From Terebella lapidaria (taxonomy: Eukaryota > Annelida > Polychaeta > Terebellida > Terebellidae): a stretch of 64,000 nucleotides of DNA. Below are positions 39,401-48,400 of the stretch, piece after piece (within the stretch, counting starts at the first letter, position 1; every line of letters starts with the position of its first letter). Both the position numbers and the translations under genes were made by a program. The notes below the pieces were generated by a model. It did no database searches. It was not told the origin of the DNA and saw nothing but the letters and a program-made list of their open reading frames with translations. The stretch covers positions 14,278,868 to 14,342,867 of the forward strand of contig OX424555.1 in the NCBI GenBank assembly GCA_949152475.1, given 5' to 3'.

Positions 39401-42400
39401 CAGTCAACAAGTTCGTGTCAATCAGAGTAGGCCTATACATTGTAGATAGCATTTCCACTAAGGGTAATCTATTTGCTGCGTACGATATTGAAAGCTAATA
39501 AACTACCCGTATGTATACGCAGCAAAGAGCCAAAGAAATGGGCAATAAATTGTAAGTTTTGCCAAATATGGTGAAATATCGGTATTAACATGGACAAACA
39601 CACTTACCTGATATGCGCATTCCACATATGTATTAGGCACTCATAGGTGAGAAAAGTTTTAGTCCAGTATCATTATTCAAAGAGAAAACATGTACCAAGC
39701 AGGCCTACCCCCCTATAAATTCACCTATTTTCGCGACCGTCTTTATGAAATCGGCCCATTTATTGTTAGTTAACTGTAAAAACAAACACACCAAGGTGGG
39801 CTTCAGGGAGTTTATTCCAGACAGCAAACAGAAGTAATATTTGAAATGCATACCAAATTAACATGAATATTAATATGATATAATATATTATATATATCAT
39901 AAATTGTTATACCACTTGTATAAACAATTGCATAATAGTAATGCATATGATAACTGTATTACATAATTATGCAAATTAGTAATATGTAAATTGAGTCCAT
40001 TGCTTGTGAACTAACTCAAACTCCCTGACCTAACTACCACTAGTAACTACAAAGGAAAAAACGAAACAAAAGTTCAAATCCTGATCTCTGTGTCCCACAC
40101 CAACAGAACCACGGTATTAATTAACAATTGTATTCAAGGGATGGGAGGGCGGGCCAAAGCAAAGTTGTTGCCAGTTTGGCTGCTAGGCACAGACTGAAGA
40201 GATTTGAAATTTTTTTCCCAGGAATACTGACACCCTGGTGATCAAAATATCATCAATTAAAACCTAAGATTGTGGCAAGGGAAATGGCCCTCCTGGGGCC
40301 CGTGTCTGGAACATGCCAGGCTGCCTGTGGAACCCCTATCTCACCACCCTTGGTGTATTTATATTTACCTCACTTCACAAGTGAAATAAGTATAAAAACA
40401 AACACACCAAGGTGGGCTTCAGGGAGTTTATTCCAGACAGCAAACAGAAGTAATATTTGAAATGCATACCAAATTAACATGAATATTAATATGATATAAT
40501 ATATTATATATATCATAAATTGTTATACCACTTGTATAAACAATTGCATACTAGTAATGCATATGATAACTGTATTACATAATTATGCAAATTAGTAATA
40601 TGTAAATTGAGTCCAAGAGTCCAGATATGGAAGTATAAAGTAGGAGAGCTAGGATGTAGGTAAAACTCTCACAAACGGTTGAACCAGTTGAAACTTGGTG
40701 AGAGGGGAAATGTCTAGGTAACGTTTGTAGGAGTCTGAACGCCAGTCCCCCATCATTTGGATGAGCTCCCCAGGCATGCCTTGGGCAAAGGCCCAAGACG
40801 CCCCACCGCGACGAAAACTGTGGCCTGAGTACAGGGTTGGATCCATGCCGATGGACTGCAATGCCTGCTGTAGCTTGCTGGAGAACTGGTGCTGGGTCAT
40901 GATGTTGATACCCCCTGGGGTGGAGAAGGCAAACAGAGGGGAGTCTTGTGGCAGGGATGAGGAGAGCCGCAGCAGCTCCGTGACTGCAGTGACTGGGCAC
41001 AGTGGGTGGCGTGGGATGTATGGCAGCACCACCTCTACTGCTCTCTCTTTGAACTGGATGGTCTTTGACCAACACACTGACACAATATATCCACGTGGAG
41101 TGATGCGGAGACTATCCCGTGTCAAGCACCGCAGGGGGGCGGCTCCTATTGACCGGGGCAGGAGGTTGGACTTCCGAAACAGGCCGAAGAAGGCCACCGT
41201 ACAGACCGCCCAGAACACAATTTCCTTTGGGGTCAACAAGTGCAGGGTACTCCGGATCCGAAGCAGGAGCTGAGGGGTGATTGGCAGTTTTTGTGTTGCC
41301 TTGGAGCCTTTTTCCCGCTTGATGCCTTTCAGCAGTGTGGAGAGCACAAAGTTGTCCTCCAGTGGGTTGGGAAGGCCGGCTTCCAGGTGTAGCAGGCGGA
41401 GGATATTGAGGTATTTGGGCAGAGATGTGTATGCCAGACGTTCTGCCAGGTGGGCCGTGTATCGGCACGTGTTGTGTCGGGTAACAGGGAAGGGCGGGAC
41501 CCCAGACTGACTGCAAAAGTCCAGGTAACTCCTGAGATGGGCTTGGTAAGACTTTTTGGTGGAGTCGGCCAATGCTAGTGACCGATACCGGGCAATGGAG
41601 CTGTCCAGTTTCTGGAGCATGGCATTAGGTGCTGTATCTGTGTGGTCAAATAACATAAAGCATTAGCTGACATATGGTGCTGTAGCAGTTGTAAACAATG
41701 AGCCGATGATGCGGGGAGACCGTGTCCGATAAGGGAGCACCAAAACTTGAAGTGCCCTGGCTGGTGCAAGCGGGATACAGCATCTGCTTCCACATTAATT
41801 ATTCCTGGTACATGTGAGCATTTGAGGGTGATATCCAACAAGGCAGTTATCCAGAACACTAAGCGCAGGTGCGCCATAATGAGCGGATCCTTGCTGATGC
41901 CACGGCTGATAGCGGCACGCGCTGTACAGTTATCTGTGAAGATATGGACTGTATGTCCCCGCCAGTGGGGAGCCCAGTGGTATATGGCCTGTATAATAGC
42001 CATGGTCTCTTTGACATTGATGTGGGTTGAAAAAATGTCTGGCATATCCAGAGCCCAGTTGATATATAGCCAGTCCGTGGGAGTGATGATGCCCCCACCG
42101 TGTGTGCAGGCATCAGACACAATAGGGATTATTGGGCCTTGAGGTTTGCGAATTGACTTGGTATTGTGGCGCTGTAGAAGGTAGAGCCACCAAGTGATAT
42201 CCTTCTGGAATTCCTCAGTGAGGAGAAGCTTGTGGTGTGGCTTTTTCAATTGGCGAAGTAAACTGAGCACTCGCTGTAGGTAAATTCTACCTGCGGGGAT
42301 GACAGTGGAGGCCCAGTTTAGCTTACCGGCGAGTTGCTGTAGCTGGCGTAGTGACGCCCTACGACGTCCGTGGAAGGATTTCAGCAGATCCGACATGGCT

Positions 42401-45400
42401 GATACTTTGGCAGCTGGAAGGCTGAGAGTGTACGACTGCGTGTCGAGCAGAACACCGAGAAAGGTGAGTTGGCGCATTGGCGAGACGGTTTTGTCCCAAG
42501 CGATGGCGAAGCCGAGCTGCCGGAGCAGGTGGAGGAGGGTCCGGAGACCATTGGCGCACGTCTCGTGATCATGAGCGATCACTAGGAAATCGTCCAAATA
42601 CACTACAACTTCATATCCCTGTCGCCTCATCATCCGTCGCACTGCCTGGGTGAGGCGATGAAAGATGCCCGGGCTAGCCCGAGCCCCAAATGGCAATCGA
42701 CAGTCCGTCATGTAGGTGTAATCCGCATGGTCACTGAACTTCCACTTGAGGCCGGTGTATTCTGCCTGCGATGGGTGGAGCTTCACACTGCGGTAGGCTG
42801 ATTTGAGGTCAACTTTGGCCATGTAATCCTGGGGCTGAAGTCGATCAAGAGCTGAGGCGATGGTTTACCCTCTGGGTGGGAACAGTCATGTATAAGTCGG
42901 ACCGAGTTTGATGTCTTGGGGATGGCCCCCAAGGCACTGACAATCTGGGGTCGGTGGTCCGGTTTACACACAAGGTACCGTCCCTCTGCTAGCTCGGTCT
43001 TGATCTGAGCTTCCACAGCGGCAGAGAATTGTCTCGTTGAGGGGTAATTGTTCACTTCAACATTTGTGTTTGGGACAGGTGTGTCATCATTCGTGATAAG
43101 AAAACCCTCTTTAATCCCTTGTAAGATGAATTTACGATCTGGGTCGTCAGGGGGGATTTTTTCGTCCCATTTAGAGAAGTTCAGACAGCTGGGGTGTTCG
43201 GGAGGCTGGGGTAGATCTTGTGGGGTTGTTTGTGTACCTGGTTCTTCTGGAGTGGGTGGGTTCAGTTTTTTGGGTGGGCTGTCTGCGGATGATTCTCGTC
43301 GCACCCTGGGACTGCGCAGCAATGACGGTATTTGCAATGGTCACCCCGCGGACAGGAGCCACTGTTGAACTGGCGGCAGACTGCTAAGTGGCCGCTGTCT
43401 TTCCGTCTGCTGTCGGCTCCTTTCTTGGCCTGTGTTGGCGCGGGCCTGTTGGTTTCTGGCGCCCTGAGTCGGAGGTGGACACTGGCGAGGTGTGGGGAAT
43501 CACTGCCCCAACGGAAGCCGTGACAGGCCTGCAGTTGTCGGTATGACCTGTCATACTGCAAAACTGATGGCCACTGGTGTGCCTCGCCCAACTCACATAC
43601 CTTGATCGTGTACGCCAGATAGTCCATGATAGTATGTGTACTTAGTTCTCCCCGAGACAACAACTCCCTCATAATCCGGAGGTGGGCTGCTGTCCACTGC
43701 AGGGGACGGACTTGCTCCAGTTTAGGCTTGCGTGGTCCCGAGCGCAGGAGCACTTGGATATCTCCCGTATCGGACACGGTCTCCTCCACACTATCGGGGA
43801 CACAAGGCCGGACGTAGTCCGTGATGTCCAGGTGTTTGGCGGCCGTCTTCGGGAGGAAGTAAGCCAGGGGGTTCAGGTCCACCCGCTCACCTGCTGGACT
43901 GGCGGTGGCGCCCAGGAGTTGGTGGAGACTGGGGACGGGTGCTGTTGAACCAGGTGGTGCCGTCGTGGTGTCTTGTCCCGTCGCGTCCTTGGTTGGGTCC
44001 CGGATCTGGGCTTGCGGCCTGTCGAATGTACTGCAGACAAGGCGCTGTACAGCCCGTCGCTGCGCCAGGGGCTCCAGGGTCATGGCAGTGATGTCCTCTG
44101 GCAGGAGACCTCCGAGCAGGACCTTGGATGTGGCCCCTTGACTGACAAGTGTTGCAATTGTATTGTCAGTCAGGCCCTCTTCTCGAAGCCACTCTCGGAA
44201 CTCCAGATTGACAGCTGGGGTGACCGGCTGGTTGACCCGGGCTGTGCTGGGACTGCTTACATGTATCTGCGTGGGTCCCCCGACCTGCGTTGCCATGGGT
44301 TGTAGAGGACCCATTGTTGAGGTCCAATCTACATTCGGGCACACTGTCCGTGCGATGTTCAGGACATCGTCCATTTCACTTTGCAGGCTGTGTAGGTATG
44401 ACATTGCAATGCCAATATTCAAATATAACTTTATGTAACTTTGATGTAACTTGCTGTAGCCAAGTCCAAAGCAAAGTTGTTGCCAGTTTGGCTGCTAGGC
44501 ACAGACTGAAGAGATTTGAAATTTTTTTCCCAGGAATACTGACACCCTGGTGATCAAAATATCATCAATTAAAACCTAAGATTGTGGCAAGGGAAATGGC
44601 CCTCCTGGGGCCCGTGTCTGGAACATGCCAGGCTGCCTGTGGAACCCCTATCTCACCACCCTTGGTGTATTTATATTTACCTCACTTCACAAGTGAAATA
44701 AGTAGACAAAATACATCTGTGATCCAGGTTTATGGCAAACAGATATCCATTCTGGCATTTACAACACATACATCATCATTTAGTGATGCAAATCGGTCTA
44801 CACACACATATTTGTTTAGCTGTACGCAGCAAATGGTAACTGTGTGCAGCAAATCAATGCCGTGTACACTTATCATGAACGCGATGATAGACTCGAATTT
44901 CACTTTCGGTATTTTTGTGCATTTTGAGGTGAGAGATGCATGATGAAATCGACTGAAAAACCAAAGAGTGTAATTACACGATTTAATTAACAGCTACCAT
45001 GATGCAGTTACCTTACTGCCTTTATGAATAAGCACCTGGTGTATATGTGTAGCTATTTACATGATAGGACCGTCGCCTAGCACTGTTCAATGCGAGCCAT
45101 TTAGCTTCAGTGTCGCCCTGATACTTGGATTTTTATATTGTCTTGTAATACTAGAAGGTTGGTGATTTGTACATCGTGTCACTATGGTAAATCACTCCAA
45201 TTATCAGCTGTAGCAGCATATATTTTCTGCCATGCAACTAGATCTATTTTCATGTTAATTTTGGGGAATTCATGACGGGTGCCACTAGTGGGGCAGGAAA
45301 TGCTCACTCTTTCCGGAACACCTGATTTCACCTCCTAATGGCCATTCTTGGGGGTTCATGAGTTTCCCTGTCATTTTTGTTTTCTCTCACTTCGTATGCC

Positions 45401-48400
45401 TGATATGACTTTCTGTCCCCGGACTATGAGATTGAATAACGGACCCCGTTTTGTTTGCTCGGAATACCTAATACTGGGTATTGATTCCACGCCTATTCCT
45501 CCGTTTGACGGGTGTGAATTTAGATCGATAAATTTCATGTTTTCTAAAATATGTGCTCGCCTTCTTTTTACTGAGGATCAATTTCGTTCTCCCCATATTC
45601 TCTGTAAAAAATATATTCAAATTATCAACATTCAAGTGAACACGGCATTGATTTGCTGCATACAGTTACCATTTGCTGCGTACAGCTAAACAAATATGTG
45701 TGTGTAGACCGATTTGCATCACTAAATGATGATGTATGTGTTGTAAATGCCAGAATGGATATCTGTTTGCCATAAACCTGGATCACAGATGTATTTTGTC
45801 CTGTTAACTAACAATAAATGGGCCGATTTCATAAAGACGGTCGCGAAAATAGGTGAATTTATAGGGGGGTAGGCCTGCTTGGTACATGTTTTCTCTTTGA
45901 ATAATGATACTGGACTAAAACTTTTTTCACCTATGAGTGCCTAATACATAATTATGTGGAATGCGCATATCAGGTAAGTGTGTTTTTCCATGTTAATACC
46001 GATATTTCACCATATTTGGCAAAACTTACAATTTATTGCCCATTTCTTTGGCTATTTGCTGCGTATACATACGGGTAGTTTATTAGCTTTCAATATCGTA
46101 CGCAGCAAATAGATTACTCTTAGTGATTTCTAGACACATTTTCCCCTAGATAACGCACTGGCAGCACCCACGGTTCCACGCCTACTTTCCGGCCGGTAAC
46201 TCGTACCCTTCCATTCTCGGGGACATGCTCTCGGACGCCATCGGCTGTGTCGGCTTCTCCTGGGTAAGCCCGGGGTCTACATACATGCACATATTACTAC
46301 ATGCGCATGCCAAACGTTTTTTTCTCTCAATTTTTATATTTCATATCTTATAATATATAATTGGAGAACACACTGAGACAAATACATGTGTTTTCACAGA
46401 ATCTGATTATCCTTATTAGTTATCGACATTTTAATAATAAGACGGGGATTCTAATTTCATAATTATATTATAACATTTTATTATTATATTTTTATCAGTT
46501 ATTTATTAGATTAATTTGCACGAGAGAGTACTAATCGAGTACGGTATATACTAGTACGACAATCAGACTATCATCCTGCCATCAAATTGATCTACTATAG
46601 TTTGGAATTGAGTTTTGAGAATATAGCCATAGAATAGAGAGGGAGACGAGTTTTGTACACACGCTATGTAAATTCATGATCCGTTATTCTCTTGTACTCA
46701 ACAGGCGGCCAGTCCGGCTTGTACCGAGCTGGAGACATTGGTTCTCGACTGGCTCGGTATGTAATCACCTCCCCATCGAATACAAGCTCGCATCGATAGC
46801 ATTATAATAAACATTTACGTCCTATGTATTGAAAATGTTCTTCCTAAGACAGCAACAAAAAATATTTGCCTGTATATTTCAGCGAAGATGATAGGACTCC
46901 CTCCAGTGTTTCTTCATGAGCATGGTATAGGAGGCGGTGTCATACAGGTTTGACATTTCATATACACGATGTATATATATTGCATGAATAAAATAAAGTT
47001 GCATACTTTAATATCGCCCTCTAAATCTATGACAAAGTCTGCTATAAAAGAAGTTACATATAATTTATTATTTCCCTCTAAATCTATATATAGATGTCTG
47101 CTCGTAGTTTTTCGCCACAATCACGCAAATCCTCGCCGGATGCCTGATATTTCCAAACACACCAAAAGGTCATCACTGCATTTACTGCACTGAATCGGTC
47201 GGGATCACATGGTGAAATGATTCATGAGCTATCCAAATTATGTTTTGTAAGTTCGAGTTAAATGACTGTATGTACAGGGTTCCGCCAGTGACTGTGTACT
47301 GGTCAGTCTGCTCGCCGCTCGTTTCGCCGCCATCAAGGACCTAAAGAACAAGTTCCCGTTCGTGGAGGAAGGGGTGCTTCTCTCCAGGATGGTCGCCTAC
47401 TGCTCCAAACTGGTCAGTCTATACATGCTCCAAACTGGTCAGTCTATATGCAGTCACCGTAAGAACCCTGACTACCGAAACGTTATTCCGCATTACATTG
47501 TCATTCGTTGTCTGCCCATTAAACTGGTAAACGGAGAAAAAAGAAACCAAACGATCTGACACAGGTTGAACGATATACATGTATGTTACAGGTAATGGGG
47601 TTTGCACGGTGGCAGTGTTTCAGGCCTACGGCTCTCTGTCGACGATGATGTGATGCATTAGGCCTAATTGATATGGACAACGCATATGAGGCGGCCAAAA
47701 AAGCTGTTCGCATAACTACATTCTAACATTTCATTCCCAGGCACACTCGTGTGTGGAGAAAGCTGGTCTGATCAGTATGGTCAAGATGCGAGAGCTGGAC
47801 ATTGATGACAACTTCGCCCTGAGAGGTCCTACACTCGAGAAAGCCATAGCGGTCAGGATATCAATATTTAGGGCTCATTTCTGGAATATCTTAGAGTGTT
47901 AACAATATCCCATTGTTGAATTGTTATTCACCTTCCTGTGTCGTTGTTCTGCAGGAAGACAGAAAACTTGGTCTGATCCCGTTTTATGTGAGTAGAACAC
48001 TTGTGACCGTTTGGTAAATTATTCAAGTTTATTTTACCGGTATCTGAATTCAGAGAAGAAAAAAACTGAAAACGCCTCTTTGTTATACCAAAATTTTTGC
48101 GAACAATGGTACTTCCAGCAAAAGCCACTTTCCATAAATTAACACCTCCTCTACTAGCAGTTATCCCACACACTCTACCATTGTGTCTAACTTGTGTCCG
48201 TCATGTGAAAGGTGTGCGCAACTCTGGGTACGACGGCGGTGTGTTCCTTCGACAACCTACACGAGCTCGGTCTGGTCTGTGAGAAGGACAACATCTGGCT
48301 GCACGTGGACGCCGCGTACGCCGGCAGCGCCTTCATCTGTCCCGAGCACCAGCACTTCATCAAGGGCATAGAGGTCTACACCACATACATCTTCAAAATA

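Follow-up and report, generated by a model that had tools for sequence, protein, structure and literature searches.

The window analysed here is a stretch of 64,000 nucleotides from the annelid Terebella lapidaria (contig OX424555.1, positions 14,278,868 to 14,342,867), and positions 39777-44704 of it hold what is very probably a Ngaro-type (DIRS order) tyrosine recombinase (YR) retrotransposon, recently and exactly inserted into one arm of a foldback transposon that lies within an intron of a decarboxylase gene. The finding is ordinary in kind, a further member of the Ngaro group with a damaged reverse transcriptase (RT). From the nested copy come the exact ends of the element; the many Ngaro families of the same genome add a target motif and a conserved architecture of the junction, with the crossover off centre. 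The hairpin-shaped cut-and-join site common to these same-genome relatives may be a clue to how Ngaro elements insert.

Layout, insertion site and class of the element

The sense strand of the element is the minus strand of the window, and foldback arm sequence borders it on both sides. In sense order it consists of A1 (44704-44466), the genes, B1 (40615-40393), A2 (40392-40154), a 154-bp spacer and B2 (39999-39777). An earlier note on this DNA had described split repeats of 239 bp (A) and 223 bp (B), and alignment bears out their positions and sizes: the A repeats (40154-40392 and 44466-44704) are identical at 239/239 positions and the B repeats (39777-39999 and 40393-40615) at 222/223, a total of one mismatch in 462 positions. 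Two full-length repeat pairs of this size, interleaved, are far beyond chance. This near-identity, together with a close sister copy (L009), also upholds the claim of a recent event. The features of the element, including its open reading frames (ORFs), are:

39777..39999, minus strand: B2, 3′ terminal repeat in the sense direction, 223 bp (222/223 against B1)
40000..40153, minus strand: spacer between A2 and B2, 154 bp (conserved in full and solo copies)
40154..40392, minus strand: A2, internal repeat, 239 bp (239/239 against A1)
40393..40615, minus strand: B1, internal repeat, 223 bp (222/223 against B2)
40348..40412, minus strand: dyad of the B1|A2 junction, with arm-TTTA at 40412-40393, a 25-nt core at 40392-40368 and TAAA-arm′ at 40367-40348
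40649..41662, minus strand: YR, 337 aa, open frame with catalytic residues present (ORF list, Pfam, alignment, predicted fold)
41575..42864, minus strand: downstream piece of the RT/RNase H (RT/RH) gene, 429 aa, with YLDD motif; frame broken upstream near 42866
42783..43340, minus strand: upstream piece of the RT reading frame, stop to stop (ORF list; without a Pfam match of its own)
43262..44404, minus strand: gag-like ORF, 380 aa from the first Met, with a CCCH zinc finger near the C-terminus (ORF list, Pfam)
44466..44704, minus strand: A1, 5′ terminal repeat in the sense direction, 239 bp (239/239 against A2)

The foldback arms 39456-39776 plus 44705-44871 pair with 45634-46125 at 97-99% complementarity, and the arm at 45634-46125 is without an element. 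The Ngaro element is thus nested in one arm of an inverted-repeat transposon, as had been proposed, and the empty target is preserved in the other, at 45800|45801. The note had placed the ends to within two bases; it located the site correctly, and the remaining uncertainty is removed by five other foldback elements (L022-L028; 12 alignments, 8 distinct arms, some loci overlapping), all of which read GTTAACTG at the site. What sets the window's intact arm apart at 45802 is therefore a point change, and the ancestral target is the sequence kept in the left flank of the Ngaro element. The insertion reads GTTAACTG|element|GACAAAA, with zero duplication and zero loss, and is exact at 39776|39777 and 44704|44705; the expectation that a recombinase would leave no target duplication is matched by the empty site, which shows neither duplication nor loss. 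A foldback arm free of the element would read GTTAACTGGACAAAA across the insertion site.

All three genes counted in the note are on the minus strand: a gag-like ORF that has a CCCH zinc finger, an RT/RH and a YR. The zinc finger matches zf-CCCH_4 (E = 1.6e-4, under the curated cut-off), and the RT/RH region matches RVT_1 (E = 1.4e-19) and the RT thumb (E = 1.5e-4, under the cut-off). The catalytic residues of the YR are invariant across 12 aligned YRs and its predicted structure has a Cre-like fold. The RT and YR ORFs overlap. No DDE integrase is among the Pfam matches of this copy's ORFs, and none of the four ORFs scanned against Pfam matches a Dam methyltransferase (MT). The description of the element as structurally complete holds for its repeats but not for its coding capacity, because 46 bp are missing near 42866 by comparison with L009, L010 and L012 and the RT is split over two frames; judged by its sequence, the window copy is unable to encode its own intact RT. 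The 429-aa RT piece, used as a genome query, finds four window-family copies among 98 scored matches, all on contig C1, and the open RT frame is longer in the other three (603, 492 and 603 aa).

The element is classed as Ngaro-type by its layout, RT/RH, Cre-fold YR and absence of an MT, set against relatives from the same genome only. It has the split direct repeats of the order A1-ORFs-B1-A2-B2, an RT with RNase H (the RT frame being broken in this copy), a YR instead of a DDE integrase, no MT domain in the four ORFs scanned and no target-site duplication. The inverted terminal repeats with internal complementary region and the MT domain of DIRS1-like elements are both absent: the repeats are direct and split, and the only inverted pairs of at least 40 nt at the setting used are the foldback arms. 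Ngaro elements of zebrafish, sea urchin, fungi, Xenopus and Cafeteria share the A1-ORFs-B1-A2-B2 layout with similar repeat sizes and, like the window element, have gag-like, RT/RH and YR genes and no MT. The literature covered was open access (including PMC9210276, PMC4157794, PMC8547959, PMC6681497, PMC2632668, PMC5633606 and PMC8946536), each paper being cited here from excerpts. In the Xenopus Ngaro DIRS-53_XT the repeats are 236 bp (A) and 152 bp (B) (PMC9210276); unlike in Xenopus Ngaro, no SGNH hydrolase ORF is seen in the window element, and its RT frame carries a deletion. Isolated AB units are common to the window family and Cafeteria Ngaro (PMC8547959).

PAT-like elements also have split direct repeats, RT/RH and YR, and carry an MT domain (PMC4157794) of a kind not found in the window element. 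That the latter is a PAT-like element which lost its MT domain and only resembles Ngaro is very improbable: such a loss is described for a C. briggsae lineage (PMC4157794), and our comparison covers relatives from the same genome, but the window RT is 37-51% identical to the many other RT families scored and only 22-28% identical to the MT-bearing L059, L060 and L064 (31% to L062 over one 77-residue piece). In an RT tree of 14 rows, all of them from this genome, the window groups among nine other MT-less families with a 100/100 split from three MT-bearing rows. No relatives were found in viral and prokaryote contig collections.

Several points weigh against the Ngaro assignment. L064, which bears an MT, falls on the MT-less side of the tree on a very long branch, so the MT label is not cleanly split. 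The RNase H match is weak (E = 0.012, under the curated cut-off) and the YR match to PF00589 (E = 0.0027) scores 18 bits, below the cut-off of 27.1. The class is drawn from comparison within one genome, as against one with named Ngaro, PAT or DIRS references, and the circular intermediate, RNA and activity of the element are presumed.

The B|A junction, the target motif and integration

All 11 families with a junction defined by the B repeat have the form arm-TTTA|core (23-30 nt)|TAAA-arm′ where B meets A. The boundary was taken from two B copies (window, L034, L038, L044, L046, L051 and L058, then L106, L108, L109 and L110). It is exact in at least one copy for seven families; in L106, L108, L109 and L110 it is free by 1-2 nt because flank and core share bases by chance, and it was set at TTTA|. 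No B repeat was found for L107, hence no junction was set, and L036 and L047 show no convincing junction. The first permutation test included L045 and L050, found by pattern alone; the later tests did not.

Ten positions outside TTTA/TAAA pair in 49/80 cells against 28% expected (first eight families, to L106; p = 5e-10), a figure somewhat favoured by the TAAA position having been chosen partly by pairing. When arms are exchanged between families, 1 of 40320 permutations reaches the own-family pairing (539 of 40320 without the shared TTTA). The inner core forms a stem beyond that of shuffles (p < 0.05) in six of the eight families, the exceptions being L046 and L106. In ten families (without L110) the outer arms (z 4.7) and the inner core (z 3.2) alike have their symmetry centre 13.5 nt inside A; three later families alone again place the outer-arm centre at 13.5 (z 4.0), with inner cores that have no unique centre. 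About the crossover itself, pairing is near background in the dyad scans, so a lox-like site symmetric about the crossover is unsupported; pairing of the left arm with the core is matched by 31189 of 40320 permutations. The loxP site is symmetric about its own 8-bp spacer. Unlike in Cre-loxP, the symmetry centre of the Ngaro junction is some 13.5 nt off the crossover.

Single-stranded DNA folding of four junctions gives z values of -5.1 (window), -3.1, -2.2 and -3.5. In a scan along the 3′ region the junction window is the best of all in the window family, L034, L038 and L106, and is beaten by 4, 4 and 5 of 84 windows in L044, L051 and L058; L046 fails the scan, with 65/84 windows as good. Taken family by family against shuffles, the arms are significant in the window family, L044 and L051 and not in L034, L038, L046 and L058.

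The dyad might act in RNA (in packaging, template switching or 3′-end formation), with the YR reading only TTTA| and the neighbouring bases. A sense transcript across B1|A2 would hold the same dyad, and AATAAA occurs within B in several families. G-U pairs are not in excess among the non-Watson-Crick cells (6/31 against 20% expected) and the dyad adjoins the exact crossover point, both of which speak against a role in RNA; we regard it as unlikely.

On the target side, 44 sites share the motif (A/G)TTTTH|. They comprise 20 of 23 listed A1-type matches of the L051 family, 18 of the L035 family (19 of 20, collapsed to 18, among which two represent a single duplicated flank and differ by one base) and six distinct window-family sites; the A1-type searches with the L051 and L035 families scored 40 of 73 and of 59 candidates, respectively. 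Positions -5 to -2 are T in 32, 32, 35 and 32 of the 44 (p 1e-8 to 3e-11), position -6 is A or G in 33/44, and position -1 is A in 12, C in 15, T in 16 and G in one. The motif is looser in the L035 family than in the L051 family. The element's first bases are there at each of the 20 flanks of the L051 family, and a few flanks of the L035 family show single-base differences in them; the 5′ end of an insertion therefore retains the -1 base of the target. At the 3′ end, 26/26 distinct B2 ends (23 plus three) retain the donor's A (-1); from this listing 14 entries with T and two with C had been set aside (a single motif in a register shifted by one base; an unrelated match). Random segregation of an exchanged -1 overlap predicts about 36% altered B2 ends, and 0/26 would then have a chance of about 1e-5.

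For an account of integration there are thus at hand two ends, an exact crossover point, a target motif, a dyad about 13.5 nt off the crossover and a single junction edge. From these we infer a circle, an action of the YR and a strand chemistry. The RT/RH would copy RNA into circular DNA in which B meets A, and the element's Cre-like YR would join the B|A junction to a chromosomal (A/G)TTTTH| site. It would bind arm plus TTTA and cut the sense strand after TTTA; the chromosomal RTTTTH| would act as a half-site, and the other strand would be completed by replication or repair. Integration of YR retrotransposons is described for DIRS-1 as modelled and not fully proven (PMC5633606).

We tentatively propose that Ngaro integration is a one-strand exchange on an attC-like hairpin at B|A, in single-stranded or cruciform cDNA. 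The outer stem of the hairpin would end at TTTA^, the cut strand would always be the sense strand, and the chromosomal partner would be a bare (A/G)TTTTH^ half-site. Integron attC sites are poorly conserved in sequence, form an imperfect foldable palindrome and recombine by one-strand exchange (PMC8946536); the Ngaro junction likewise is an imperfect palindrome with an off-centre crossover (weakest in L046), and it is this, with the one-edge junctions, that suggests one-strand exchange here. The systems differ in that integrons move bacterial gene cassettes, with no reverse transcription and a different YR, and the likeness is one of working, not of descent. A donor of this type, a folded single strand or cruciform with paired arms, an extruded core and a sense-strand cut only after TTTA, is possible on present evidence. 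A dyad centre that outer arms and inner core share at 13.5 nt inside A, with none about the crossover, is consistent with it, as are the pairing of the arms (49/80 outer cells), the variable core length of 23-30 nt and the single junction edge, with the donor -1 base at all 26 B2 ends and intact A1 starts in the fetched flanks.

Two-strand exchange by the YR on a double-stranded circle, the arms being duplex binding sites for YR or accessory protomers and the one-edge junctions the outcome of biased resolution or repair, is quite plausible, if short of probable. It is the published view for DIRS-1 (PMC5633606), the YR has a predicted Cre-like fold, and TTT is common to donor end and target. 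The crossover without symmetry counts against it, as does the lack of altered B2 ends (0/26), of which random heteroduplex segregation would give about 36%. The junction and target data fit ordinary two-strand exchange poorly and are in keeping with one-strand exchange on a folded site. A duplex overlap of core length was rejected; it would often leave the core at the opposite end of the insertion, and none of the fetched ends shows this.

If one-strand exchange is right, a eukaryotic retroelement would be using the integron trick. The junction and target data make the mechanism testable, in the strand cut at TTTA^, the need for arm pairing and the use of a single- or double-stranded substrate. 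Neither a B|A hairpin nor this target motif is described in the excerpts of the open-access literature; the original Ngaro papers (Goodwin and Poulter 2004; Poulter and Goodwin 2005; Poulter and Butler 2015), which lie outside that scope, may hold such a description.

A tandem dimer of the A-spacer-B unit, at first suspected to be a permuted insertion, lies at C16:24876212. It extends to about 24877397 (L067, L085) and consists of two 590-bp L051-family units joined exactly at TTTA|core, with flanking sequence after the second unit. Minicircle integration or unequal crossing over could be its source.

Copies and relatives elsewhere in the genome

The A2|B1 stretch as genome query gives 25 matches, and the search for further copies that the note had suggested brought up full, partial and solo ones. 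Over 4974 aligned columns the sister copy L009 and the window copy have 26 differing positions and a further 76 gap positions. The copy at C1:13806243-13811200 has all four repeats, with A1/A2 and B1/B2 identical, and a YR with a 30-bp gap. At C1:68671983-68702890 (L010, L011) all four repeats are likewise present, in halves about 25 kb apart, between which the stretches fetched contain long near-identical repeated units. The copy at C1:94488178-94492056 has the form A-genes-B and lacks the 3′ part of the YR together with one B, A2 and the spacer; the one at C1:89239922-89243994 is a 5′ fragment whose A is interrupted. Solo A-spacer-B units lie at C313:87121-87743, C6:39294966-39295587 and C13:20302431-20303054, the flanks of the first two being 99% alike, which points to one locus or a duplication. 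Counting the window, three copies of its family thus have split direct repeats; three more are solo copies, which occupy two distinct flanks. Solo AB units are known from Cafeteria Ngaros, where they are ascribed to recombination between repeats (PMC8547959). Four further places (L017-L020) hold diverged pieces.

The YR as genome query has at least 119 matches (119 of 552 first-look candidates scored) and the RT at least 98 (98 of 6354 scored). Ngaro-type elements have undergone a very large expansion, and many of the scored matches have open frames and near-identical copies. Three YR matches of equal length at C14:35429735, 35431360 and 35432985, with a period of 1625 bp, apparently form a tandem array that holds a YR gene. 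An in-frame TAG had been suspected to be conserved in the L035-family RT and was dismissed; the aligned domain of L035, L037, L038 and L039 contains no stop.

Dam MT matches number six elsewhere in the genome. L059 has RT and Dam in one ORF, L062 and L063 have RNase H and Dam (RNase H below the cut-off), and in L060 and L062 a YR domain lies in the next ORF. DIRS-type elements with Dam (L059, L060, L062, L063) therefore coexist with the MT-less families.

The foldback host and the surrounding gene

The foldback element spans 39451-46130 with its target duplication:

39451..39455 (left copy) and 46126-46130 (right copy), plus strand: 5-bp target duplication ATTTC of the foldback element (flank comparison)
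39456..39776, no strand: outer part of the left foldback arm, insertion point 39776|39777 (repeat alignment, other foldback copies)
44705..44871, no strand: inner part of the left foldback arm, insertion point 44704|44705 (repeat alignment)
45634..46125, no strand: right foldback arm, uninterrupted, empty site 45800|45801 (repeat alignment, other foldback copies)

The foldback host is about 1.74 kb long and belongs to a repeated family with arms of about 490 bp (window 39451-46130; also L025 and L026), of which at least 44 matches occur in the genome (40 of 222 candidates scored). Their ends read CACTAAGG or CACTAAGA, with 5-bp target duplications in 3/3 elements examined at both ends. A CAC start and a 5-bp duplication are hallmarks of Transib, and the host might be Transib-like. 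At C1:67344629-67384440 five foldback arm fragments of equal extent (396 bp) lie about 3.8 kb apart, a spacing that suggests segmental tandem duplication.

Exons on both sides encode a pyridoxal-dependent decarboxylase of the aromatic amino acid type, which places the nest within an intron of this gene; its orientation is antisense. The downstream piece matches PF00282 with E = 8.2e-12, and the upstream exon piece matches the same family with E = 3.1e-4, under the cut-off.

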